IMG/VR virus record: IMGVR_UViG_3300017917_002471
Span: 1-35,503 of that record
DNA from: a virus
DNA: 35,503 nucleotides
Reading direction: 5' to 3' (one strand)
Shown here: piece after piece, positions 5,860-35,503 of the stretch
How the letters are laid out: every line of letters begins with the position of its first letter
Numbering within the stretch: the first letter of the stretch is position 1
The notes under the pieces: generated by a model
What the model saw: the letters and a program-made list of their open reading frames with translations, nothing else
The model's database searches: none
Told to the model about the DNA's origin: nothing
Translations under genes and position numbers: made by a program

Positions 5860-6609
5860 ATGGAATTTACATACACAATCTACAAACTTTATTTCAAAGG
5901 AGACGACAGGGTTTACATTGGCAAAACCAATCGTTCCTTATCAACAAGAAGAAACAGTCACATTCAGCACATTAAAGCACAAAGTCACAGCAATCATCTA
6001 TTGCGTGAGGCTATGGAAAAATATGGGCAGGATGCGATGGTGTTAGAAGAGATTGAAAAATGTACTTTAGAAGAATCTAAGGAAAGGGAAACTTACTGGA
6101 TTAATAAATTCCAAGCAACTGACAAGACCAAAGGATATAATATCAGTGCTATGTCAAATGGCTCGGTTTCATTTAACTTAACTGAAATGCAAAGACAAAA
6201 GATTTCAACTGCAAGAAAAGGTAGGACGATGAGTGAAGAGCATCGTGAAAGAATACGTCAAGCCAATTTGGGTAAGAAGATGTCCGAAGAGGATAAGCAG
6301 AAGAGACGTGATTGGTACAAGAATGTTGGTGGGTTCACATACGAACAACGTGAGAAAATGAGCATTGCGGCTTCTTACAAACGAAGCGATGAAACGAAGT
6401 CAAAAATGTCCAGTTCAAGAGAAGAGAAAATTGCCCGTGCAAAAGGTATGACCTTAGAAGAATGGCGAGCATATAAAGAGAGTGCGGTTAAATACTGGAT
6501 TGACAATAGAGAATCATCAGCGGTAGTGGCCAAGATGTTTAATGTTGACAAGTCAATGCTGTACGGTTGGAAAGCCCAATATTTAGAAAAATTAAATAAT
6601 CAAGAATGA
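5860..6609 (+). CDS. GIY-YIG homing endonuclease
   Basis: A 249-residue protein. Residues 4-100 form a GIY-YIG nuclease domain: YTIYKL, VYIGKT, then the helix with conserved Arg, the catalytic-Glu region ERETYWINKF and the Asn of GYNIS. Residues about 105-165 carry NUMOD-type DNA-binding repeats (ISTARKGRTMSEEHRERI). The C-terminus has a helix-turn-helix (SSAVVAKMFNVDKSMLYGWKAQY). ATG 5860 is chosen over TTG 5854. Such free-standing enzymes cut alleles lacking them and are copied in by repair. It sits between two genes that would otherwise adjoin, and its TGA overlaps the ATPase ATG. Confidence 0.9.
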   Translation: MEFTYTIYKLYFKGDDRVYIGKTNRSLSTRRNSHIQHIKAQSHSNHLLREAMEKYGQDAMVLEEIEKCTLEESKERETYWINKFQATDKTKGYNISAMSNGSVSFNLTEMQRQKISTARKGRTMSEEHRERIRQANLGKKMSEEDKQKRRDWYKNVGGFTYEQREKMSIAASYKRSDETKSKMSSSREEKIARAKGMTLEEWRAYKESAVKYWIDNRESSAVVAKMFNVDKSMLYGWKAQYLEKLNNQE

Positions 6610-7415
6610 GAGAACCACAATTAGGTGTTGCCGTGGGCAAGAAAGGCGTTGGAAAAAGCTTCACAACAAACATACTTTTACAGCAATATGTCAATGGAAA
6701 TCCTGCTAAGGGGGTGCAAGGTCGTAGGGCTTTGATACTTGATGTGAACGATGAATTTACCCACGTGAAAGCGATAGGGCTGAAAGACATTGTTCGTTTC
6801 TCGGTGCATCCGCAAGTAGAATTAAGAAGAATCAGACCGTTTTTGCCAGATGGCCGTAGAATGACTTTGGATAAAATTGCTGAGACGTTGTTCGTTATCT
6901 TGGAACAGTTCAAAGGTGGCTTACTACTGATTGAAGACATCAACAGGTATGTATCTGACCACTTGCCAAAAGATATTGAAGGGGCTATCTGTACGAACCG
7001 TCACATTGACTTGGATATCATTATGCACTTTCAGTCAATCGGGCGTATCACCACAAAGATTTGGCAGAACTGCAACTGGATGCGTTTCCATAAAAACTTG
7101 GATAGCGTAGACAGGCACGCCAATAAGTTTGAGGACAAACACGAGTTCCTGAGATTGGTAGAGGGGATGGTAAACAACGAATACCAAAGTGGCAACAAGC
7201 GTTTTTATCAGTACATCAACTTGGATGAAATGAAAATGATGGGTTTTGTTGACCAGAAGAAGTTAGATGTCGTGATTGATGACTACATAATGATGAACCA
7301 GCGTAAGTTGATTAGGCCGTATTTGAATATGAAAGATGAGCGTAATAAGTCAAAATACACGATGGAAGATGCAAAAAGGTTGGTGAAGACCAGATTGATA
7401 CAAACTTACACTTAA
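6606..7415 (+). CDS. FtsK/HerA-type genome-packaging ATPase
   Basis: A 269-residue P-loop ATPase. Walker A is G11-KKGVGKS18. A second strand is ALILDVNDEF (43-51), and Walker B is GGLLLIEDINRYV (104-116) with Asp/Glu at its end. A sensor-like region, TNRHIDLDIIMHFQSIGR, follows. Length and motif order match the A32/FtsK-HerA packaging ATPases of tailless membrane-containing viruses; Zot-like export ATPases are the main alternative. Its role would be to push genomic DNA into preformed capsids. The ATG overlaps the preceding stop (ATGA), and a terminator follows at 7483-7509, so it closes this operon. Confidence 0.8.
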   Translation: MREPQLGVAVGKKGVGKSFTTNILLQQYVNGNPAKGVQGRRALILDVNDEFTHVKAIGLKDIVRFSVHPQVELRRIRPFLPDGRRMTLDKIAETLFVILEQFKGGLLLIEDINRYVSDHLPKDIEGAICTNRHIDLDIIMHFQSIGRITTKIWQNCNWMRFHKNLDSVDRHANKFEDKHEFLRLVEGMVNNEYQSGNKRFYQYINLDEMKMMGFVDQKKLDVVIDDYIMMNQRKLIRPYLNMKDERNKSKYTMEDAKRLVKTRLIQTYT

Positions 7416-7755: not shown

Positions 7756-8454
7756 ATGAATATCAAGAAATATCTTTCCGATGCACAAAACCGTGCACAC
7801 GAATCTTTCGCCAACGCTGACGGATTCTTTGATGATGATTTGTCTTTCACCGCTGGTGAGGATTTTTTCGGTGCTGATGGCTCTGCCTCTATGGGTGCTC
7901 CTTCTGCTCCAACATCACAGCCTTACATTTTGACCATCACCAACACTGGTGCTGCTGTATCAAACTTTGAGGTGTTGGGTTCTTACGAGTATATCAACAA
8001 CGCTGGTTTCTCTGGTGGTTCTTTGACCATTGGTTCTGTTACCATCGCTTCTGCTATCCCTAACGTAACTTACCAACAGATGTTGTATCAGTTCATGGTT
8101 AGCCCTTACAGCACTGGTTTGACTTACATCCAGTCTGCTACAACTAACCAAGTGTTAGAAACTATCAGCGTTAACACTAAAGATGCGAATGGTAACATCG
8201 CTCAAAAAGTGTTCGTTCCAACTATTGACCCATATCAGTACCAGTCAACCATCATCGCAATGAAATACGGATACCGTATTGATGGTTACACCAAACTGAT
8301 TATCGCTTCAATTTTGGCTAACGCTACTGTGAAATTGTACTTCTACCCTGCTGATAACATCAACTTGGCTCGTGGTTTGGCAGGTCGTCCTGTAAGCCGT
8401 GAGTACGGTAGCCCAGGCATCGTAAAAGCACAAACCGTTAAAGTAATCGGTTAA
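7756..8454 (+). CDS. Candidate major capsid protein, jelly-roll-like
   Basis: A 232-residue protein. Residues 1-52 are an acidic, Phe-rich tail (FFDDDLSFTAGEDFFGADG). Residues 55-200 alternate short beta strands (PYILTITNTGAAVSNFEVLG, SLTIGSVTIAS, TVKLYFYP) with the block KVFVPTIDPYQYQ, a layout typical of viral jelly-roll capsid proteins. About 180 folded residues suit one jelly roll; a compact double roll cannot be excluded. It has its own promoter and is followed by a strong terminator, as expected for the most abundant protein. Residues 105-162 match residues 25-82 of the protein at 22535-23407. There is no signal peptide or membrane helix. Identification as capsid is inference from composition and context. 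Confidence 0.7.
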   Translation: MNIKKYLSDAQNRAHESFANADGFFDDDLSFTAGEDFFGADGSASMGAPSAPTSQPYILTITNTGAAVSNFEVLGSYEYINNAGFSGGSLTIGSVTIASAIPNVTYQQMLYQFMVSPYSTGLTYIQSATTNQVLETISVNTKDANGNIAQKVFVPTIDPYQYQSTIIAMKYGYRIDGYTKLIIASILANATVKLYFYPADNINLARGLAGRPVSREYGSPGIVKAQTVKVIG

Positions 8455-8479
8455 TCCGTTTGATTTAATATGAGAAGAA

Positions 8480-8510
8480 GGGCGGGCGATTTCGCCTGCC
8501 CTTTTTTTTT
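8480..8510 (+). terminator. Strong terminator after the capsid gene
   Basis: GGGCGGGCGA (8480-8489) pairs with TCGCCTGCCC (8492-8501) with one G-U pair, followed by nine T. The next gene starts 23 bases later without a visible promoter, so the downstream membrane-protein genes probably rely on read-through. This would set a high ratio of capsid to minor proteins. Confidence 0.9.
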
Positions 8511-8532
8511 CACTTAGTTAGCAGAAAAAAAT

Positions 8533-8907
8533 ATGAACCTATACCAAAGAGTAGCGATTGCAAACCCAAGAGAAGCCAAATCGGTGATTAATAAGTTTGG
8601 GTATGAAATTCGCACCAATAACCTGCCACAAGCACTGAGAATGCTTGTTTCGGCTGAGGGCGAACCTGCGTTACGTGCTATTGTGGACATACATCCAGAT
8701 AAAGATTTGATTCTGGAGTGTTACGCTGAAGATAAAACTGCTATCCAGAAGGATGCCAGCACCAATTTGAGTAACCCCCATTACGATATGTATTTGAATG
8801 CCGCAGGTCAACAAATCACAGAAGCCCAAAAAGCAACCCAACTCACCAACACTTTCTTAATAGCCAGCACACTGATTATTTTGACTGCTTTAATCTTGAA
8901 AAATTAA
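8533..8907 (+). CDS. C-terminally anchored membrane protein
   Basis: A 124-residue protein. Residues 1-90 are soluble and helical (RVAIANPREAKSVINKFGYE), including an EGEPALRAIVDIHPDKDLI segment. One membrane helix is at about 103-122, ending in LKN, so the bulk would lie on one side of the membrane. It is the first gene after the capsid terminator and is one base away from the next gene. I recognise no family, though a similar N-terminal part preceding a C-terminal anchor would suit a protein linking capsid and internal membrane. Confidence 0.65.
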   Translation: MNLYQRVAIANPREAKSVINKFGYEIRTNNLPQALRMLVSAEGEPALRAIVDIHPDKDLILECYAEDKTAIQKDASTNLSNPHYDMYLNAAGQQITEAQKATQLTNTFLIASTLIILTALILKN

Positions 8908-8908
8908 A

Positions 8909-9565
8909 ATGAAACATAAAATTACCCAAAGAGGTGTTTTTGCCGTAAGTGCAAAGACCATTGATGAAAGAAAACCAGAAGTGGTTGCTTTGATGCAACG
9001 ATACGGGATGAACGTAAACGTGAATGATAGCAAGGACAAGATTGATATGGCCTTTTTGTCATTGTTGCCACGTAGCCGTGGTTTCCGTAAAGATTTTGCT
9101 GCCTTGGCTACCCCTGTGGCTGAAAGTATGCACAAGGAATATAAGAATGCTTGTGGTGATTGCTATGCTAACGCATCCAGTGACCCTATGAAGGACATTA
9201 TGAACATTCCATCAAAAGGTATTGGTACAAGTTCAACTGCAACTGCTCCCGTTGCCCCTGCAAAGTCTAAAAAGGCTTTCAGTGATACTGGTTTCGGTTC
9301 TTGGTTGTCTGGTGTTTTTGATAAGGACACCACGCAGAACATCATCAATACTGGCTTGGGCATCTATGCTTACCAAAAAACTGGTGGCACACAAGGTGCA
9401 AATCCTTTGAATCAAGGTCGTGCTGATGTGCAAGGACAAACTCCTACACCCCCAGCAGGCGAACAAGGTAGTTCAACTGGTTTGGGTACAGGTGGTATTG
9501 TTGTAATTGCTTTAGGAGCACTTGCATTGGTTGGTTTTGGTATCTATTACGCAACTAAGAAATAA
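8909..9565 (+). CDS. Membrane protein with linker and C-terminal anchor
   Basis: A 218-residue protein. Residues 1-90 are a mixed alpha/beta soluble part (ERKPEVVALMQRYGMNVNVN) followed by ACGDCYANASSDP with two Cys. Residues about 95-190 are Gly/Ser/Thr/Pro-rich and flexible, and one membrane helix is at about 194-213 with a basic end. Its stop overlaps the next start. The long flexible linker before the anchor suggests the N-terminal domain works away from the membrane. Family unknown. Confidence 0.65.
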   Translation: MKHKITQRGVFAVSAKTIDERKPEVVALMQRYGMNVNVNDSKDKIDMAFLSLLPRSRGFRKDFAALATPVAESMHKEYKNACGDCYANASSDPMKDIMNIPSKGIGTSSTATAPVAPAKSKKAFSDTGFGSWLSGVFDKDTTQNIINTGLGIYAYQKTGGTQGANPLNQGRADVQGQTPTPPAGEQGSSTGLGTGGIVVIALGALALVGFGIYYATKK

Positions 9566-10104: not shown

Positions 10105-10779
10105 ATGAACAAGAACACTAAATTGATTCTTATGGCTGGTGGTGCAGTAGCACTTACTTACGCTATGATTGAATATTACAAAAAGAATGTAAAAGGGGAT
10201 AGCACTGGCACTCCAGTAGTTCCAGATAATGACCCTTTGCGTGCTTCAAGTTTCACCGCAGGCGATGATTTCTTTTCAAATTATGTGAGTGACGATTTCT
10301 TTGGTTTTACTGCTAATGAGCCATTTATGAATGCAAGTGGTGGATTCTTCAGTAGATTCAAAAGAAAAAGCAACTCAACAGGTCGTGCAACCCAAACCCG
10401 TTGCGAAACCAATTTGGAAAGATTGGCACGTTTGCACCCCAACAATGACCAGTACAATGCCGAGTTAGGCAAAGCGTACCAAACACAAGGTGCTAACTTT
10501 GGCACTTGGGCACAATCAACTGCAAAACCCTGTTTCGTAGTAGGTATGGAGCAAGGTGGTTTGCAGAGTGGCACATCTAATTTTTCTGGATTAGGTGATA
10601 TCTTGGGTATCAAATCATCACCAAAAAAGAAATTTGCACCAAAATCTAAGCCTTTCTTTAGCAAAAGTAAAGGGGCAAAAGAAACTGGATTAGCAGATTT
10701 GCAATTCACTGCAAGCGATAATTTTTTCAATGCAGGAGGTATCCCAGTAGCAACTGACGAGCCAAACTTTAAGGGTTAA
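10105..10779 (+). CDS. Membrane protein carrying three acidic FTAxDxFF motifs
   Basis: A 224-residue protein with an N-terminal membrane helix at about 6-22, then SFTAGDDFFSN (49-59), DDFFGFTANEPF (63-74) and, near the C-terminus, QFTASDNFF. The middle has a basic patch (SRFKRKSNS), a Cys-containing helix (CETNLERLARLHPNNDQYN) and a Lys/Ser/Pro-rich region. The motif FTAGxDFF also occurs in the N-terminal tail of the candidate capsid protein. The shared motif suggests a common docking or processing site between capsid and membrane proteins. No known family was recognised. Confidence 0.65.
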   Translation: MNKNTKLILMAGGAVALTYAMIEYYKKNVKGDSTGTPVVPDNDPLRASSFTAGDDFFSNYVSDDFFGFTANEPFMNASGGFFSRFKRKSNSTGRATQTRCETNLERLARLHPNNDQYNAELGKAYQTQGANFGTWAQSTAKPCFVVGMEQGGLQSGTSNFSGLGDILGIKSSPKKKFAPKSKPFFSKSKGAKETGLADLQFTASDNFFNAGGIPVATDEPNFKG

Positions 10780-10784
10780 TAACT

Positions 10785-11096
10785 ATGGATAGCAAAACAC
10801 AAAAAGCCGTAATCATCGGTATAGTGGTGGCCGTTGTTGCTCCTTTGATTGTTGACGAAATACGCAAATATCGCAATAAGCAAAACAGCAATATCCCAAC
10901 CAACACTGACCACGGTTTTACGAATTGGGTAGGTGATGATGATTTCTTTGAGATTGAAGGAGACCAAACTGTTAAGGGTAATCCCTATATGCATTTAGCC
11001 CCTTTGACAAGCAAGGATTCAATGTTGAATTTCCCCAAGTACAAAAAGTACAAGCCTTTTGTTGTTAGCCCATCTAAAAAAATTAAATTTGTATGA
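10785..11096 (+). CDS. N-terminally anchored membrane protein with DDDFFEIEGD motif
   Basis: A 103-residue protein. A membrane helix at about 8-24 is followed by a short basic stretch, then GFTNWVGDDDFFEIEGD, which resembles the acidic Phe motif of the capsid tail and the preceding gene. The C-terminus is Lys/Tyr/Pro-rich (KYKKYKPF). It starts 6 bases after the preceding stop, and its TGA overlaps the ATG of the 26-residue peptide. Function unknown; a small virion membrane protein is likely. Confidence 0.62.
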   Translation: MDSKTQKAVIIGIVVAVVAPLIVDEIRKYRNKQNSNIPTNTDHGFTNWVGDDDFFEIEGDQTVKGNPYMHLAPLTSKDSMLNFPKYKKYKPFVVSPSKKIKFV

Positions 11097-11173
11097 AAGC
11101 CAAATACTTATACTATGCAGTAGGTGCTCTCGGAGCATACTTAGTGTACAAATGTTTATCTGAGAAAAAATAA
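11093..11173 (+). CDS. 26-residue single-helix membrane peptide
   Basis: ATG 11093 overlaps the preceding TGA (ATGA), and TAA is at 11171-11173, five bases before the next ATG. The product MKAKYLYYAVGALGAYLVYK plus a CLSEKK tail is a single membrane helix with basic ends. It fills the gap between two genes exactly and has the same helix style as its neighbours. Small membrane peptides of this size are typical of membrane-containing phage virions. It is easy to miss because of its length. Confidence 0.6.
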   Translation: MKAKYLYYAVGALGAYLVYKCLSEKK

Positions 11174-11177
11174 CGCT

Positions 11178-11540
11178 ATGAATAACGCACAAAAAGTAAT
11201 CATCGGGTCTGCCATCGTCTTAGGCGTTGGCATCTTTGTGTTTTCTGACTTTGGTCGTAAGAAAAGCGTATTGCAAGCCCCAGATACAAGCAAAGGAGAC
11301 GTTCCATTCAACCCATCTACGAATTTCGCAGGTATGGCTGGTGTGACTATTCCTCGTGGATACGTTACAGACCCCGAAATGATGTTAGAGGTAAACCCCG
11401 AAACATTCCCAAATTTTGCTGGTAGCAACGAAATGCTCTTAGCGAAGAAAAACTACCCTTTTGGGGAGAATTTCGCTCGTAAAAGGCCAAAACCCGTTTC
11501 TTACAGGCCATTTTATGCCAAAAACCGTAGAAAAAACTAA
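11178..11540 (+). CDS. N-terminally anchored basic membrane protein
   Basis: A 120-residue protein. A membrane helix at about 5-22 is followed by a soluble part with two NFAG segments (STNFAGMAG and FPNFAGSNE) and a very basic C-terminus (RKRPKPVSYRPF, then KNRRKN). The basic tail could contact viral DNA, placing the protein on the inside of the membrane; this is inference. It sits within the gapless membrane-protein array. No family recognised. Confidence 0.62.
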   Translation: MNNAQKVIIGSAIVLGVGIFVFSDFGRKKSVLQAPDTSKGDVPFNPSTNFAGMAGVTIPRGYVTDPEMMLEVNPETFPNFAGSNEMLLAKKNYPFGENFARKRPKPVSYRPFYAKNRRKN

Positions 11541-14380: not shown

Positions 14381-14853
14381 TAACGAAGCAGGAAAAAAGT
14401 TGGTTGATAGGTATTGGTGTTGTTGGTATTCTGACAGCACTTTATTTTATTACTAAGCCCAAGGATGACAAACAGGGCGATGAGGGTAATCAAGAAAAGC
14501 CAGACCCCAAGTTGGACGAATTGGTTAAAGCAGGCAAGATTGTTGGTGCTACGTTGGTGTCTAAAATCAAGAATGTGAAATTAAGGCATCAAGCATACGT
14601 GAACGATGGTGCGGTCAATAATCGCTACGGTGAAGCCCCAGAGCCAAATATGGCCGTTGGACAGGTTCTATCTGTGGTGGATGATTTGACTAAGAATGTC
14701 AACCCAGCAACAAGCCAACCATACAAGTGGTTCAGAATTAAAATTGATAAAGCCTTGTACGATGAGATACAGACAAATCAACGCAGTTGGTGGACACGTG
14801 AGAAAATCGTTCCTGCTCAATTGTTCGTAAGGGAGGACACAGTAAAAATATAA
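14377..14853 (+). CDS. Membrane-anchored protein with SH3-like C-terminal domain
   Basis: A 158-residue protein. A membrane helix at about 10-26 precedes a charged linker (KPKDDKQGDEGNQEKPDP). Residues about 55-150 contain strands (VKLRHQAYVNDG, AVGQVLSVVDDL, YKWFRIKI) in the order of bacterial SH3-type cell-wall-binding domains. That assignment is tentative. The next gene is peptidoglycan-binding-like, which makes an envelope-contact role more plausible. Confidence 0.55.
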   Translation: MITKQEKSWLIGIGVVGILTALYFITKPKDDKQGDEGNQEKPDPKLDELVKAGKIVGATLVSKIKNVKLRHQAYVNDGAVNNRYGEAPEPNMAVGQVLSVVDDLTKNVNPATSQPYKWFRIKIDKALYDEIQTNQRSWWTREKIVPAQLFVREDTVKI

Positions 14854-14855
14854 CT

Positions 14856-15266
14856 ATGAAATTGAATAATAAACAGATATTGGTTTTGGCAAGCGGAATG
14901 GCTTTGTTTGGTACTGGCATTTTCTTGCTGGTAAAGAATAGGTCGCCAAAAGGCGGCAATACCCCTGTGGTTGACCCGTCTAAGTTGTTATCTCCAGATA
15001 TGGATTTAACACCATACAGAAGCAAAATCAACTTTGTATCAGAGGGCTTGTTGGACAAGACTTTGAATGCAAAAGTGACAACATTGCAGGGCAAATTGAA
15101 CGCTTACTTTGCAAGCCACCCAGAGTTGGAGTTCCCACATTACCCTTTGAAAGAAGATGGCTTATTGGGCGATAAAACCTTGTTAGGTATCGTTTACTCA
15201 TTTGGTGATAAGATGCTTCCTATTACCGACAAATCTCAGATTGATTGGTTCAACAAAAACATTTAA
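14856..15266 (+). CDS. Membrane-anchored peptidoglycan-binding-like protein
   Basis: A 136-residue protein. A membrane helix lies at about 8-26 and a basic Pro/Gly linker follows. Residues about 65-125 resemble the PG_binding_1 fold: VTTLQGKLNAYF, then LKEDGLLGDKTLLGIVYSF, matching the VxxLQxxLN...DGxxGxxT signature. In the family this three-helix domain binds peptidoglycan. In a membrane-containing virion it would help the particle or its membrane tube reach the cell wall during entry. Confidence 0.65.
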   Translation: MKLNNKQILVLASGMALFGTGIFLLVKNRSPKGGNTPVVDPSKLLSPDMDLTPYRSKINFVSEGLLDKTLNAKVTTLQGKLNAYFASHPELEFPHYPLKEDGLLGDKTLLGIVYSFGDKMLPITDKSQIDWFNKNI

Positions 15267-17383: not shown

Positions 17384-19894
17384 ATGACTGTTACTAAATC
17401 TAACCAGAATAATCTTACATCACCAGACGGCAATAGTCTTGCAGTATTTGTTGATATCAACGACAACACATTAAAAATTAAAGACATTAATGGTAACGTT
17501 GAGAATATGGCAAACTACTTGCCCGATATGCCATTGCCTACGGGGGTTTTGGAATTAGAGGGTGGCGTTGCGATGAGCAGTACCTTGACAAAGGTTGCTG
17601 ACCAAAATGGCAATACCAGTCCTTTAGAGTTGTCTACAACAAGTATTACTTCCAGAGGTGGTGGAAGTGTAGTTAATAACACTGCATTCGGTGTGGATGC
17701 TTTAATTAGCAACAACGCAGGGGTGTTGGGGAATACGGCCTTTGGTGCGTTAGCGTTGCGAGCAAATACAACGGGGCAATTCAATACTGGTTTTGGTAAT
17801 GGTGCGTTGTACTCAAACGTTGATGGAACTGATAACACAGGTATTGGTAACGCTGCACTGTTCTACAATTCATCTGGCGATTACAACACAGGTATTGGTG
17901 CTTCTGCTTTGCTTACAAATACAACAGGAAACAACAATACAAGCGTAGGTTATAGGGCTTTGTATGCTAACTCTTCGGGTTCGGGCAACACCTCTGTCGG
18001 AACTCAAGCGATGGAATTAAATTCTACGGGTACTGGCAATTCCGCATTTGGATATTTGGCTTTGCAGAACAACACCAACTCAAACAACACCGCTTTGGGT
18101 TACAGAGCGTTACGAGCCAACACAAGCGGAACTTACAACGTGGGTGTTGGTGTGGATGCTTTGTTAAGTAATACTACAGGTATAAACAATACTGTGGTAG
18201 GTGGATTAAGTGGTAATTTTAACGTTTCGGGTAATCAAAACGTTTCTTTGGGCTATGCTTCTTTATATCTAAATTCAACAGGTTCAAACAATGTAGCGTT
18301 AGGTGCTTTTGCATTGAACAATAACAATGCAAATAATAACGTAGCAGTTGGTTCTTTGGCTTTACAAGTAAACACAGCAGGCAATAATACAGCAGTTGGT
18401 TTTGAAGCCGCAACCACCAACACAAGCGGAACGGGTATCACCGCTATAGGTTATCAAGCGTTACGATTAAGTACGGGCAATAATAATACCGCTTTAGGAA
18501 GCGTTGTTTTGACCGCAAATACTACGGGAACAGGAAACGTTGCAGTTGGGAACTCCGCATTAACAGGAAATCAAACAGGAAACACAAACACGGCTATAGG
18601 TTCTTTTTCTTTGCAGTTAAATGTAAGTGGTTCTAATAACGTTGCTGTCGGTAGAAACACATTGACTAACAACACCGCATCTAACAATACCGCTATAGGA
18701 TTTGAGGCGTCAAACGCTAACACAAGCGGAACAGAAAATACTGCTGTAGGATATCTTGCAGGTCGTTCAAATACTACATCAAATAACAATACGGCTATTG
18801 GTTCTTACGCAGGTTATTCTACGACCACAGGTGCAAACAACACATCTTTAGGTAGGAACACGCTTTTTGCGAATCAAACAGGCTCTTCAAACACCGCTTT
18901 AGGTGTAAATGCTTTGTCTGCCAACACCGCCTCCAACAACGTAGCCGTAGGTTTTGAAGCAGCAACTACCAACACAAGCGGAACGGGTATTACTGCTATA
19001 GGTTATCAAGCGTTGAGGGTTAGTACGGGTAGTAATAATACTGCGTTAGGAAACCAAGCGTTAGTAGCAAACACCACAGCATCAAATAACGTAGCAGTAG
19101 GATTTTCTGCATTATTGCAATGTACTACAGGTGCTACTAATACCGCAGTAGGTACAAACGCTTTGTTAGGAAATACAACAGGAAGCAATAACGTAGCAGT
19201 GGGTACTTCTGCTATGATATTAAATTCAGCATCTAACAACACCGCTGTAGGTGTAGACGCTGCACGTACCAACACCTCAGGCACAGGCATAACTGCAATA
19301 GGGTATCAGGCGTTGACTGCGAGTACGGGTAATAATAATACTGCTGTAGGATTTCAAGCAGGTGTACTGATTAACATAGGAGTAAATAATACGGCTTTAG
19401 GTGCAAACGCTTTAGGTAATAATACAAGTGCAGGTTCTAATACTGCTATAGGTCGTTCTGCATTGCTTTCTAATTCTACTGGATTTGGTAATACTGCGGT
19501 AGGTGCAGAAGCCGCACAATCAAGTTCTACGGCAACAGGTATAGTCGCTGTAGGTTTTCAAGCGTTAAGTGCAAATACAGGTGTTAATAATACTGCTGTT
19601 GGTTATCAAGCAGGTAACGCAGTTAACACAGGGGTTAATAACACTTTTGTTGGATACATAGCAGGTAATGGAAGTAACGCAAACAATGTAACGGCGATTG
19701 GCAGAAACTCTACATCCACATTTGATGGATGTCTTGTTTTGGGTATGAACGCTGCCGCTACAGGAGTTAACCAATTTGTAGTAGGTAGTGCTTCTGTTAA
19801 CGCAGGTGCTATTACTACAGAAGCGGTAGTATCTGACAGAACTTGGTCAGTAATCATCAATGGCACTGCTTATAAAATTTTATTAAAGGCATAA
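17384..19894 (+). CDS. Second repeat spike protein with YadA-head-like repeats
   Basis: An 836-residue protein. Residues 1-50 (NNLTSPDGNSLAVFVDIND, then LKIKDINGNVENM) are shared with the truncated spike at 35001, and residues about 65-105 with the N-terminal part of the spike at 743. Residues about 105-770 are several dozen NTAxGxxALxxNTTGxxN-type repeats, as in trimeric YadA heads. The final 70 residues (NQFVVGS, then TWSVIINGTAYKILL) match the 743 spike. An N-terminal virion anchor, a repetitive shaft and a conserved C-terminal tip or trimerisation region is the likely architecture. Confidence 0.8.
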   Translation: MTVTKSNQNNLTSPDGNSLAVFVDINDNTLKIKDINGNVENMANYLPDMPLPTGVLELEGGVAMSSTLTKVADQNGNTSPLELSTTSITSRGGGSVVNNTAFGVDALISNNAGVLGNTAFGALALRANTTGQFNTGFGNGALYSNVDGTDNTGIGNAALFYNSSGDYNTGIGASALLTNTTGNNNTSVGYRALYANSSGSGNTSVGTQAMELNSTGTGNSAFGYLALQNNTNSNNTALGYRALRANTSGTYNVGVGVDALLSNTTGINNTVVGGLSGNFNVSGNQNVSLGYASLYLNSTGSNNVALGAFALNNNNANNNVAVGSLALQVNTAGNNTAVGFEAATTNTSGTGITAIGYQALRLSTGNNNTALGSVVLTANTTGTGNVAVGNSALTGNQTGNTNTAIGSFSLQLNVSGSNNVAVGRNTLTNNTASNNTAIGFEASNANTSGTENTAVGYLAGRSNTTSNNNTAIGSYAGYSTTTGANNTSLGRNTLFANQTGSSNTALGVNALSANTASNNVAVGFEAATTNTSGTGITAIGYQALRVSTGSNNTALGNQALVANTTASNNVAVGFSALLQCTTGATNTAVGTNALLGNTTGSNNVAVGTSAMILNSASNNTAVGVDAARTNTSGTGITAIGYQALTASTGNNNTAVGFQAGVLINIGVNNTALGANALGNNTSAGSNTAIGRSALLSNSTGFGNTAVGAEAAQSSSTATGIVAVGFQALSANTGVNNTAVGYQAGNAVNTGVNNTFVGYIAGNGSNANNVTAIGRNSTSTFDGCLVLGMNAAATGVNQFVVGSASVNAGAITTEAVVSDRTWSVIINGTAYKILLKA

Positions 19895-21900: not shown

Positions 21901-22212
21901 ATGCAGAGCAGAACTATTAACACGATTTTGGTTTCCTCAGCGGTTGTTTTAACACTTGCTGGGGTTTATACATTGTTCCGTAAAGGTGGAAGTCTTTTCG
22001 GTTTCGCAAAACGCATCGGTGGAGCAGTGGGGTTAAATGAAGAACCCACATCATCAACAAACCCTAAAGCACTATCTGACGAGTTTGTACAATCTGGTCT
22101 AGATAACGCCAATGCCTTGTTACAGAAGAAGCGTGCGATTTATGAAGCAAAATGGAAGAAGTCTGGCAGTAAGTTGTCATTCAAAGATTGGTATATTGAA
22201 AACGCAGTATGA
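21901..22212 (+). CDS. N-terminally anchored membrane protein ending in SFKDW
   Basis: A 103-residue protein. A membrane helix lies at about 8-26, then a basic Gly-rich segment, then a C-terminal helix with WKKSGSKLSFKDWYIENAV. SFKDW at 93-97 matches residues 16-20 of the 12120 gene, again preceded by a Lys-rich SG-x2-L. The motif lies at the free end, as expected for a docking peptide. Its end overlaps the next gene (ATGATG). Confidence 0.62.
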   Translation: MQSRTINTILVSSAVVLTLAGVYTLFRKGGSLFGFAKRIGGAVGLNEEPTSSTNPKALSDEFVQSGLDNANALLQKKRAIYEAKWKKSGSKLSFKDWYIENAV

Positions 22213-22535
22213 TGATTAACATTTCTACCCAAGCAAAAGAGGCTCTGATAGTGTTCGGTATCGCAGTTGCGGTACTTTATGTTACTACCCCAAAAGGAAA
22301 AGGCAGTTTGATACCTAAGCCCGATACAGCCCCTGCATCTGAGTTGGCTACCAAAGAGAATGCAATGATTGCATTGGATGCTTACATCAGTGCAACCAAA
22401 GCAGGTGAAACAAGTTCTAACTTGAACGCCCTAAATAATGAATTGGCATCACAGTACGGTTTGCGTGTTTACAAGCAGGGCGAAATCTTTGTTGCCCGTA
22501 ATTCATCTGGAACAGATATCTTGAAAGGAAAGTAA
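22209..22535 (+). CDS. N-terminally anchored membrane protein
   Basis: A 108-residue protein. A membrane helix at about 11-27 is followed by a Lys/Pro-rich linker and a small alpha/beta domain (NAMIALDAYISATKAGETSS, then YGLRVYKQGEIFVARNSSGT). It overlaps both neighbours, including the capsid paralogue by one base. Coupling to that gene suggests the two products are needed together. Confidence 0.58.
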   Translation: MMINISTQAKEALIVFGIAVAVLYVTTPKGKGSLIPKPDTAPASELATKENAMIALDAYISATKAGETSSNLNALNNELASQYGLRVYKQGEIFVARNSSGTDILKGK

Positions 22536-23407
22536 TGGGAACTATTGCTGCTGGATACGACAATTTTGGCTCACCGTGGTTAGAGGTAATCGCTGGTGGG
22601 CAAATCTCATATAATGTGATTCAGCAGAGTATCTCACAGGGATACCAGTATGGTGTGAATGGTCTTTATATGAAAGCCAACACTATCTCCCAGTTACTTG
22701 AAATCATCACCCTTGAAAAGAACAACCGCAGGGGTATTTTTGAATTAAAGGAGTTTGTTCCTATCGTTGACCCTTATCAGTTTGTTGCGGCTATTGAAAG
22801 CGATGTAGTTGATGCAAAACAGCACGAACAGTTGACCTTTGATGGCCGTCAAGTATTTGTAATGCCTATTCAAGCAGGAGAAACCGTTTTCTGTGTTTTC
22901 TCGCTGGAGGAACAGAGCACAAACAACTTGTTACGTGGGGCTACCAACTTTGAGACGTTGGAGTATTTTGATTACTTGGCTGATTTCCCTGATAGGGAGG
23001 ATGTAGCACCAACCCAAAGGGACATTCTCGTTCAGTTACAGGTTAAAAACAATAGCACGGCATTGGGAGTGCCTTTCCGTGGTAATGTATCACTGCTGGG
23101 TGGAGCACCAGATACTTATGCTCAGAGCGTGAATGCGAATGGTCTGTGGCAATGGAACTTTGTTTCATTAGAGCCATATGACATTTCCGCAGTACAGTTA
23201 TTTTACAAAAAAGTCACCGAAGTAAGTTATACATCAGTGACTGTTTATGGCAATTTTACTACTGCTCAGCAGATTGCTACTGCATTGAATGTTCAAACGG
23301 CATTGGGATTGTTTTGGGTGAGCACTGGTGGCTTAGGTCAACCTATTCTCCAAACCACCAATGATACCTTAGATTTCCAGAACTTAGTTTATACAGGAAC
23401 TCTGTAA
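22535..23407 (+). CDS. Capsid-protein paralogue with extra C-terminal domain
   Basis: A 290-residue protein. Residues 25-82 align with residues 105-162 of the candidate major capsid protein. Shared features are a Tyr-rich strand, the (N/G)QxLExI strand and the hallmark FVPIVDPYQF against FVPTIDPYQY. The N-terminal strands and acidic tail of the capsid protein are missing. Residues about 160-290 form a second beta-rich domain (DILVQLQVKNNSTALGVPFR, WQWNFVSLEPYDISAVQLFY). It could be a penton or minor capsid protein, or the larger partner in a two-protein capsid lattice. It is the last plus-strand gene before the convergent minus-strand block. Confidence 0.65.
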   Translation: MGTIAAGYDNFGSPWLEVIAGGQISYNVIQQSISQGYQYGVNGLYMKANTISQLLEIITLEKNNRRGIFELKEFVPIVDPYQFVAAIESDVVDAKQHEQLTFDGRQVFVMPIQAGETVFCVFSLEEQSTNNLLRGATNFETLEYFDYLADFPDREDVAPTQRDILVQLQVKNNSTALGVPFRGNVSLLGGAPDTYAQSVNANGLWQWNFVSLEPYDISAVQLFYKKVTEVSYTSVTVYGNFTTAQQIATALNVQTALGLFWVSTGGLGQPILQTTNDTLDFQNLVYTGTL

Positions 23408-28013: not shown

Positions 28014-29069
28014 TTAGATGATACCACCTGCACGCAATTTCTTGAATGCTTCTTCGTAGTTCTTCATGATTTGGGCTTTCTGCCTGTTGTATTTTGCTTT
28101 GCTGATAAGTTTATCATCAAACTCTGCACGGAGTAATTCCAACTCACGCAAACGAATCTCATTAAGGCGAATAACCTGCTGTGCTTTTGTTTCACGCTTG
28201 CTGGGTTTTGCTGGCGGTTCGGGCACGCTCACTTTTGGTTCTTTGACACGCTTTTTGGTGGTTGGGCGTTTTGCACTTTTACGGGCTTTGCGTTTTTCTG
28301 CTTCCTCTTTGGCCTTTTGTCTTTCACGCTCGTCTTTCAAACGCTGTCTTTGTTCTTCACGCAAACGCTCTACATCTTCAGGGGTTTGAATACGCTGTGG
28401 GGGCAAAGTGGTAATTGTTGATGGCTCAACAACGGGCTGGTTGTTTTCAATCAAAATGATTTGAAAAACATAACTATCTGGGTCTGTTAAGTCTGTTGCC
28501 CCTGCACGAATACCAACATAACCTTCCCAAGTCAAATATGGCTCAGAACTTACTGATGGGCTTGTTCTACGGATTTCTTCAACGATGTCCTGTAATCCAG
28601 TACTCACATACTCGTAATCACTCAGATTAAATTCACCTGTATTACCGTACTCGCCTGCTAAAATCATCATTCGCAAATCCTTGTCGGTAGTTCTCAAGGC
28701 ACGCACCTGTCGGATACTTGGAGACAAATCGCCCGTTAAGAATCCGTCTATGTCAAACCAGTTGATACCAGAAACTTCTTCTTCCCCGATTGTTCGAGGG
28801 TCAACATATTGTTTCTGTGGGGGAACAGGTGCAGGAGCAGGAGCAAGACTTTCACGTGTTGCTTCACGGATGTCTTTTACTTTGACTTTGTAAGCAGGTT
28901 GTCCTTTGAATTTTGGATAAACATTCTTACTTGCGTATTCCCTTGCTTCTTCATAAGTCAGTTCGGTCTTCTTAGATTTGAACTCTTTACGAACTGCTCT
29001 AACTACTTTGGCGTATAATTTAACACGCTGATTTCGTTTCTTTTGCCAGTCAAGTATTTTTTTGGTCAT
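28014..29069 (-). CDS. Large basic protein with coiled coil and central globular domain
   Basis: A 351-residue protein. The N-terminal 80 residues are basic and helical (LDWQKKRNQRVKLYAKVVRA). Residues about 95-215 are a globular domain (EVSGINWFDIDGFLTG, YLTWEGYVGIRAGATDL). Residues 235-340 are a long charged coiled coil with Lys/Arg/Pro linker (LREEQRQRLKDERERQKAKE). The whole is strongly basic, suggesting nucleic-acid binding. It stands alone between two promoters upstream of the polymerase-like unit. A terminal protein or replication-associated role is conceivable, but nothing specific shows it. Confidence 0.62.
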   Translation of the reverse strand: MTKKILDWQKKRNQRVKLYAKVVRAVRKEFKSKKTELTYEEAREYASKNVYPKFKGQPAYKVKVKDIREATRESLAPAPAPVPPQKQYVDPRTIGEEEVSGINWFDIDGFLTGDLSPSIRQVRALRTTDKDLRMMILAGEYGNTGEFNLSDYEYVSTGLQDIVEEIRRTSPSVSSEPYLTWEGYVGIRAGATDLTDPDSYVFQIILIENNQPVVEPSTITTLPPQRIQTPEDVERLREEQRQRLKDERERQKAKEEAEKRKARKSAKRPTTKKRVKEPKVSVPEPPAKPSKRETKAQQVIRLNEIRLRELELLRAEFDDKLISKAKYNRQKAQIMKNYEEAFKKLRAGGII

Positions 29070-31042: not shown

Positions 31043-31134
31043 ATGTTAAAGAAACAGAGGTCATCCAGTATACAGTGTGCGCCTCACCTGATGCATCAAG
31101 GGACTGTGCGTTTGCGTTTTACTTGTTTCTTTGG

Positions 31135-31208
31135 TAGCCAAGACGAGATTCGAACTCGCAATCCCCCCAACTTACTGTCGGGGCCTTTACCAATTAAGAT
31201 ACTTGACT
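31135..31208 (-). tRNA. tRNA-Tyr-like (anticodon GTA)
   Basis: Acceptor AGTCAAG/CTTGGCT, D stem TCTT/AAGG with loop AATTGGTA, anticodon stem CCCGA/TTGGG with loop CAGTAAG, and T arm GCGAG TTCGAAT CTCGT fold into a regular cloverleaf with A73. The anticodon reads GTA (Tyr). Position 33 is A instead of the nearly universal T, which is odd and makes function less sure. CCA is not encoded. Confidence 0.65.
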
Positions 31209-31315
31209 ATGTTTGAGGGTGAGAAATCCTCAGTGCTGTAGAGAACTTATACTCTAGTTTTTAGTACCCTTCATCTCGTAACGGTTTGCTTACCGTATCA
31301 GGAACAACACTTTGG

Positions 31316-31388
31316 GTGCGGAGGCAGGAATCGAACCTACTACCTTGTGGTTATGAGCCACAAATGCAACCACTACACTTCTCCGCAC
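31316..31388 (-). tRNA. tRNA-Met (anticodon CAT)
   Basis: A perfect acceptor stem GTGCGGA/TCCGCAC, D stem AGTG/CATT, anticodon stem TGTGG/CCACA with loop CTCATAA (T33 and anticodon CAT) and T arm GTAGG TTCGATT CCTGC. About 73 bases, CCA not encoded. The first base pair is G-C, so it could be an elongator Met or an Ile tRNA with modified C34. It directly follows the RyR-domain gene in the same direction. Confidence 0.9.
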
Positions 31389-35000: not shown

Positions 35001-35503
35001 ATGGGATTAACTAAAACGCCACCAAATAACATTCTAAGCCCAGATGGTAATTCTTTTGCCGTCTTTTTGGATATAAATAGCCCACAGGTTCTCAAATTAA
35101 AGGACATCAACGGCAACATTGATTTACTAAGCAACTACTTGACACCTTCTGGAACTTTTATCGTTTCTATGGAGAACGTAGGAGCAGGTGCAGGGGTTTA
35201 CATTCCCAGTACAACCAATCCTGCTCAGTTAAAAACTTTGGTTCAAGGCAGCAATGTAGTAATAACCGAATCAGAACAGGAAATTGAAATCAGTGTTCCC
35301 ACAACTGTGGTGGGGCAAGTAGGATTGTATAGTCAAACAGCACAGTCTACTCCTATCACCAATACAACTGTTCCCACATCGCTTATTAATGGTGGGGTAG
35401 GTAGTTTATCAGTTCCTGCAAATGGTTTCCAAGTGGGCGATTCTTTTGTAGCCAAATTCACTGGCGAAATTTCTTCATTAAACAACGCAACAATAGACAT
35501 ACA
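35001..35503 (+). CDS. Third spike protein, N-terminal part (cut by window edge)
   Basis: ATG 35001 opens a frame that runs off the right edge after 167 codons. Residues 1-50 (NNILSPDGNSFAVFLDINS, LKLKDINGNIDLLSNYL) match the start of the spike at 17384, so the two share a virion-attachment module. After that the sequence differs: residues 55-167 (VGAGAGVYIPSTTNP, then TVVGQVGLYSQTAQSTPITN) are beta-rich without NTAxG repeats so far. A TAATTTCG just upstream could be a poor -7 box. The distal part cannot be judged from this window. Confidence 0.75.
   Translation, partial: MGLTKTPPNNILSPDGNSFAVFLDINSPQVLKLKDINGNIDLLSNYLTPSGTFIVSMENVGAGAGVYIPSTTNPAQLKTLVQGSNVVITESEQEIEISVPTTVVGQVGLYSQTAQSTPITNTTVPTSLINGGVGSLSVPANGFQVGDSFVAKFTGEISSLNNATIDI

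Follow-up and report, generated by a model that had tools for sequence, protein, structure and literature searches.

Viruses of the Halopanivirales (Helvetiavirae) carry two neighbouring genes for single-jelly-roll major capsid proteins (MCPs), which assemble into hetero-capsomers, and they encode a packaging ATPase of the FtsK/HerA type. To our knowledge, sequence comparison usually fails to link penton proteins to the MCP, because the two have diverged too far. In HCIV-1 the penton, VP9, is a single beta-barrel located above VP13, a proposed single-transmembrane protein, and serves as an adaptor on which differing spikes dock (PMC6414509). The spikes of HCIV-1 and HHIV-2 (Sphaerolipoviridae) consist of VP2/VP3/VP6 or VP16/VP17, and their beta domains vary between related viruses (PMC6414509). 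A size of about 30 kb is given for the sphaerolipovirus genome in the ICTV profile (PMC12643093). In PR772, the N-terminal domain of the spike protein P5 resembles P31, the penton protein, and the two occur together in the penton base (PMC6750898).

The gene analysed here encodes a protein of 290 amino acids and lies in a 35,503-base virus record, referred to as the window. The window is a linear fragment, and so are the contigs of its relatives. The gene, its parts and its partners are:

6606-7415, plus strand: P-loop ATPase (HerA/FtsK-like), proposed packaging ATPase from DUF87/HerA and PHROG matches; adjoins the MCP gene
7756-8454, plus strand: candidate MCP of 232 amino acids, paralogue of the N-terminal domain listed below; assigned from homology and context
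22209-22535, plus strand: protein of 108 amino acids with one predicted N-terminal transmembrane segment; one-base overlap with the fusion gene; proposed membrane anchor under the vertex
22535-22987, plus strand: N-terminal domain, residues 1-151; jelly-roll-like MCP paralogue, proposed penton base
22988-23020, plus strand: linker, residues 152-162, the fusion junction; in relatives the first gene stops here
23021-23404, plus strand: C-terminal domain, residues 163-290; beta-rich and distal, suggested to be the foot of a vertex spike

The analysis as a whole indicates that the 290-amino-acid protein probably works like a penton-spike protein at the capsid vertex. As read from genes alone, it would share with HCIV-1 and HHIV-2 a small single-barrel penton apart from the lattice MCPs, a small single-transmembrane protein proposed beneath it and a beta-domain spike on top. 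In contrast to these viruses, to which no sequence match was found, the putative penton is here fused to the putative spike foot and one MCP family is present instead of two MCP types; the N-terminal helix with which the HCIV-1 penton reaches the membrane is also missing from the 290-amino-acid protein. The likeness to P5 of PRD1 and PR772 (Tectiviridae) lies in a spike-bearing chain that starts with a penton-type jelly roll, penton and spike being one chain. However, PRD1 and PR772 combine P5 with the spikeless P31 in one heteropentamer and have a double-jelly-roll MCP, whereas only one penton-type gene was found here and the MCP is of the single-jelly-roll type. P23-77 (VP16/VP17) and SH1 (VP4/VP7) also have two jelly-roll proteins of unequal size per genome, but the larger protein is here a fusion with a normally separate domain, lies 14 kb from the MCP gene and evolves much faster.

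The ATG-started open reading frame at 22535-23407 (plus strand) is, by sequence comparison, homologous to the candidate MCP, and the similarity is beyond chance. The Smith-Waterman score was 89, compared to a mean of 36.7 (sd 6.1, maximum 70) in 2000 shuffles, and BLASTP gave E-values of 6e-8 in the pairwise space and 1e-6 in a search within the window's own record. A profile of the N-terminal domain, built from relatives, matched MCP residues 94-198 with an E-value of 5.5e-16, and profile-profile comparison of the N-domain family with the MCP by hhalign gave a probability of 97.7 and an E-value of 1.6e-12 over 97 columns. These results bear out the original prediction of a capsid-like protein sharing a core with the MCP candidate. 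The alignment of residues 25-82 with 105-162 given there was real in homology and too short in range, which is about residues 15-119 against about 94-198 of the MCP. The distance between the two genes and the lack of an acidic N-terminal tail in the 290-amino-acid protein were as described before. No third family member was found among the open reading frames of the window, the next best match having an E-value of 0.006 with all filters off in a small set. The acidic-aromatic motif of the MCP tail (FTAGDDFF-like) was also observed in the late proteins at 10105-10779 and 10785-11096; [DE][DEN]FF occurs five times compared to 0.24 expected in shuffles.

The AlphaFold2 model of the 290-amino-acid protein was obtained from alignment A8 with trimmed rows, both domains being correctly placed, and had a pLDDT of 78.8 and a pTM of 0.70, with values below 50 in parts of residues 130-160. 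The N-domain was modelled with strands at residues 7-10, 16-20, 38-48, 58-64, 67-74, 86-90, 106-112 and 117-127 and helices at 26-34 and 51-54. Residues 163-289 were modelled as a beta-rich domain that includes a single long helix. It had been predicted that a different beta-rich domain is added at the C-terminus, and the model indeed shows residues 163-290 as a beta-rich domain of their own. The possibility that this domain is itself a diverged member of the jelly-roll family was considered and rejected, as no relation to the N-domain was detectable. The model of the MCP was moderate (pLDDT 64 overall, up to 94 in the core), with jelly-roll-type strands in a core of residues 57-198 and disordered tails. 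The order of elements matches the N-domain from MCP strand 89-92 through strand 191-198, and outside this pattern the MCP model adds two strands, a helix at the N-terminus and its disordered tails. Agreement of the two folds was found at the level of profiles (the hhalign match above) and of the order of secondary-structure elements. The N-domain is small and distinct from the lattice MCP, with a strand pattern over about 120 residues, and its putative assignment as a jelly roll comes from MCP homology and strand order. Foldseek searches with the MCP model returned jelly-roll folds (nucleoplasmin core, TNF-like EDA-A1, picorna-like capsid proteins) with E-values that were not significant. With the 290-amino-acid model neither a penton nor any match of useful TM-score was returned. 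The top matches of this model, S+P-domain RNA virus capsids, had a TM-score of only about 0.12 and were discarded as evidence.

The MCP remains a candidate, identified by homology and context together with the moderate model. The adjoining ATPase matched DUF87/HerA with an E-value of 2.6e-4, slightly below the curated cut-off of Pfam, and a PHROG terminase large subunit with an E-value of 2.4e-7. A packaging-type ATPase was present as a single copy in 24 of 24 relatives searched, and each genome has one N-domain-type gene alongside MCP and ATPase. The portal protein family PF04860, the one portal family searched, was found in none of 18 records, some of which may be fragments, while the control genomes were matched. 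A family B DNA polymerase was searched for and none was found. One Halopanivirales trait, the FtsK/HerA-type packaging ATPase, is therefore seen in the window; the other, two neighbouring MCP genes, is absent, and the window has one MCP gene and a distant, diverged paralogue. No significant sequence relative was found in the PDB, where the MCP family profile matched no chain at E ≤ 1, and no solved helvetiavirus MCP was among the top 50 Foldseek matches of the MCP model. Because of the unmatched trait and the lack of a sequence relative, membership of the Halopanivirales is not claimed. The GenBank/INPHARED phage collection contained no relatives of the MCP, the ATPase, the N-domain or the C-domain, PHROGs had no family for the N-domain, and no report on a single-jelly-roll group from Bacteroidota or freshwater was found in the part of the literature covered. 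The virus group is apparently undescribed. The MCP was seen on two contigs of metagenome-assembled genomes binned as Chlamydiales and Bacteroidetes; since both contigs are short and may be mis-binned virus DNA, no host is claimed.

Direct scans of IMG/VR with the 290-amino-acid protein gave no relative, and two-sequence alignment recovered only one (G002). Relatives were reached through the MCP because the gene of interest is too diverged for such scans, and the MCP gave 44 IMG/VR loci at 58-91% identity. A counterpart of the 290-amino-acid protein was found in every long relative contig that extends to the end of the late block, and small transmembrane genes of this block always lie next to it. 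This argues against the protein being a decoy, secreted or bound to cells, that came from a capsid gene and is foreign to the virion, a reading considered highly improbable.

Of 17 relatives examined, 16 were found to encode the two halves of the protein as separate genes. The N-domain counterpart is there a gene of its own, encoding about 146-154 amino acids, and the C-domain gene follows directly or past one or a few inserted genes. In all 16 of these relatives the C-domain is homologous to the N-terminal 113-124 or so residues of the downstream distal gene, and the distal domain is thus downstream or fused in 18 of 18 genomes. Both halves share one open reading frame only in the window and in G002, which are 58% identical and of equal length in this protein. 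In L078-L081 the stop of the first gene overlaps the start of the second (TAATG or TGATG). The window reads through this stop/start junction via an 11-residue linker (PDREDVAPTQR, between DYLADF and DILVQ), so that DYLNDF-stop of the relatives corresponds to DYLADF-PDRED. Between the window and G002, synonymous change is saturated or near-saturated in both domains (pS 0.93 compared to pN 0.25, and 0.76 compared to 0.33), and the linker is less constrained than either domain, as far as 11 codons can show. The low non-synonymous and saturated synonymous change in both domains indicates that the fusion was kept by selection and is no sequencing error.

The original prediction favoured a second, larger lattice MCP of the P23-77/SH1 type and left a penton role open. 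In such a capsid the protein would assemble with the 232-amino-acid protein and the C-domain would form a tower (compare VP17/VP16 of P23-77 and VP4/VP7 of SH1), and this would fit the clear MCP paralogy, the two-domain architecture, in which the second domain would sit on top, and the presence of just one other family member in the window. The second domain, a separate gene in nearly all relatives and sometimes at least one gene away, is for that reason no built-in tower of a lattice protein. A lattice partner would also be expected to show roughly the conservation of the MCP. In a comparison of 18 genomes (153 pairs), the MCP had a median identity of 0.69, compared to 0.29 in the N-domain and 0.28 in the C-domain, and the N-domain was less conserved than the MCP core in 153 of 153 pairs. 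A lattice partner must fit the MCP everywhere, whereas a penton would have only rim contact and would follow a changing spike, and the fast divergence would thus favour a penton. Unlike the consecutive MCP genes mentioned in PMC6414509, this gene lies away from the MCP gene, and its neighbours are a predicted-transmembrane gene and, in relatives, spike-type genes. The lattice part of the prediction is therefore unlikely, and the penton role fits better.

A homologue of the 108-amino-acid gene lies directly upstream in 18 of 18 genomes, at a spacing of -1 to +12 nucleotides. The upstream proteins have about 103-134 amino acids and one predicted transmembrane segment each, with a hydropathy peak near the N-terminus in all. 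The distal gene encodes 113-137 amino acids in some genomes and 397-608 in others. Three long distal genes were scanned, and they contained a beta-propeller of the Vgb_lyase/SBBP/NHL type in L088 and PKD and DUF285 repeats in L083 and L093. Variable domains of receptor-binding type are thus linked to the penton-type protein, and such swapping of end domains would be in keeping with the habit of host-binding proteins. In L082, the N-domain gene and the distal gene are separated by a gene for a 1061-amino-acid protein that weakly matches a YadA head. A gene of about 157 codons is found between the penton-type and spike genes in at least five relatives (L088:9137-9613, with counterparts in L087 and L089-L093). 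The one insert scanned, that of L088, had a PPPDE/C97 peptidase-type match just above the cut-off and a weak LRAT match, and could possibly encode an enzyme at the vertex that acts on wall or lipid during entry.

An alternative explanation could be that the protein carries an adhesin and serves as a decoration or minor capsid protein at some other place on the shell, for example around the peripentonal capsomers or at a vertex specialised for packaging. It would show the same capsid-like homology, and adhesin-type extensions alone are no proof of a five-fold position. However, an icosahedral shell built from one jelly-roll MCP requires an occupant of the five-fold positions and no other family member was found in the window, and the synteny of transmembrane protein, jelly roll and spike is that of known vertex complexes. 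A decoration protein is considered quite unlikely. The penton reading is preferred because of the MCP paralogy, this synteny, the fast divergence, the single gene copy and the absence of PF04860.

The penton reading would place the 290-amino-acid protein at the vertices of a tailless, icosahedral and probably membrane-containing bacterial virus. The N-domain, a diverged MCP duplicate, would form a pentameric penton base closing the capsid at the five-fold vertices, and the beta-rich C-terminal domain would form the foot of the vertex spike. The upstream protein with its predicted transmembrane segment may tie the vertex to an internal membrane. About 17 plus-strand open reading frames of the late block in the window have a predicted transmembrane segment, which is consistent with an internal membrane and suggestive only. 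In the relatives, penton and spike would be the products of two genes close to each other, of which the spike gene may add a host-binding propeller or repeat head; in the window both would lie in one polypeptide, giving covalent attachment of the spike. Most likely, what is new here is a vertex protein that is a recognisable paralogue of the MCP, spike-fused in two genomes and separate in others. The birth of a vertex from a lattice protein could then be traced across many genomes, and the fused and separate states would provide a natural experiment on the attachment of spikes to vertices.

Further duplications were observed in the MCP family. In G026 (IMGVR_UViG_3300002835_000070, 102 kb), an open reading frame of 397 amino acids contains two complete MCP-like domains in tandem:

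L097:7226-8419 (contig about 17225-18418), plus strand: tandem-MCP open reading frame with two MCP-like halves

The halves are 37% and 35% identical to the window MCP and 36% to each other. This tandem fusion was seen in one contig only, where an ordinary MCP gene, a gene of the penton type and two more MCP-like open reading frames (6638-7126 and 14642-15109) are also present. Two adjacent MCP genes are present in G041 alone (L044:9995-10696 and 10720-11421). The contigs of the MCP relatives are much longer than the sphaerolipovirus genome. An undescribed lineage of large tailless bacterial viruses (contigs up to 102 kb) is tentatively proposed, with somewhat less than even confidence, in which one single-jelly-roll MCP family gave rise to its own penton by duplication, here fused to the spike, and joined two MCPs head-to-tail in at least one member. 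The origin of double-jelly-roll MCPs by such fusion is debated (PMC8812541), and if the proposal is true, the lineage would offer a natural, sequence-recognisable case of the step from single to double jelly roll. More diverged extra MCP copies were noted in G020 (28591-29061) and G039 (8456-8938).

Giant repeat proteins of the NNTAVGxxAL type are encoded at 743-2971, 17384-19894 and 35001-35503 (cut) of the window. They are YadA-like by eye, the first of them having no Pfam match, and share a C-terminal QFVVGSxxVNAG..ING..KILL segment; they are candidates for trimeric fibres. A protein of about 89 amino acids (..YVGTGGDMKVTMVGGQTVTFVNIPDGTFMPIQVTRIWATGTNATDILALF) is found beside fibre genes in two genomes, at 345-614 of the window and in L082, where it comes right after the first small neighbour of the penton-type gene. 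Genes for tRNA-Tyr and tRNA-Met are located on the minus strand at 31132-31208 and 31313-31387, in the non-structural part of the window.
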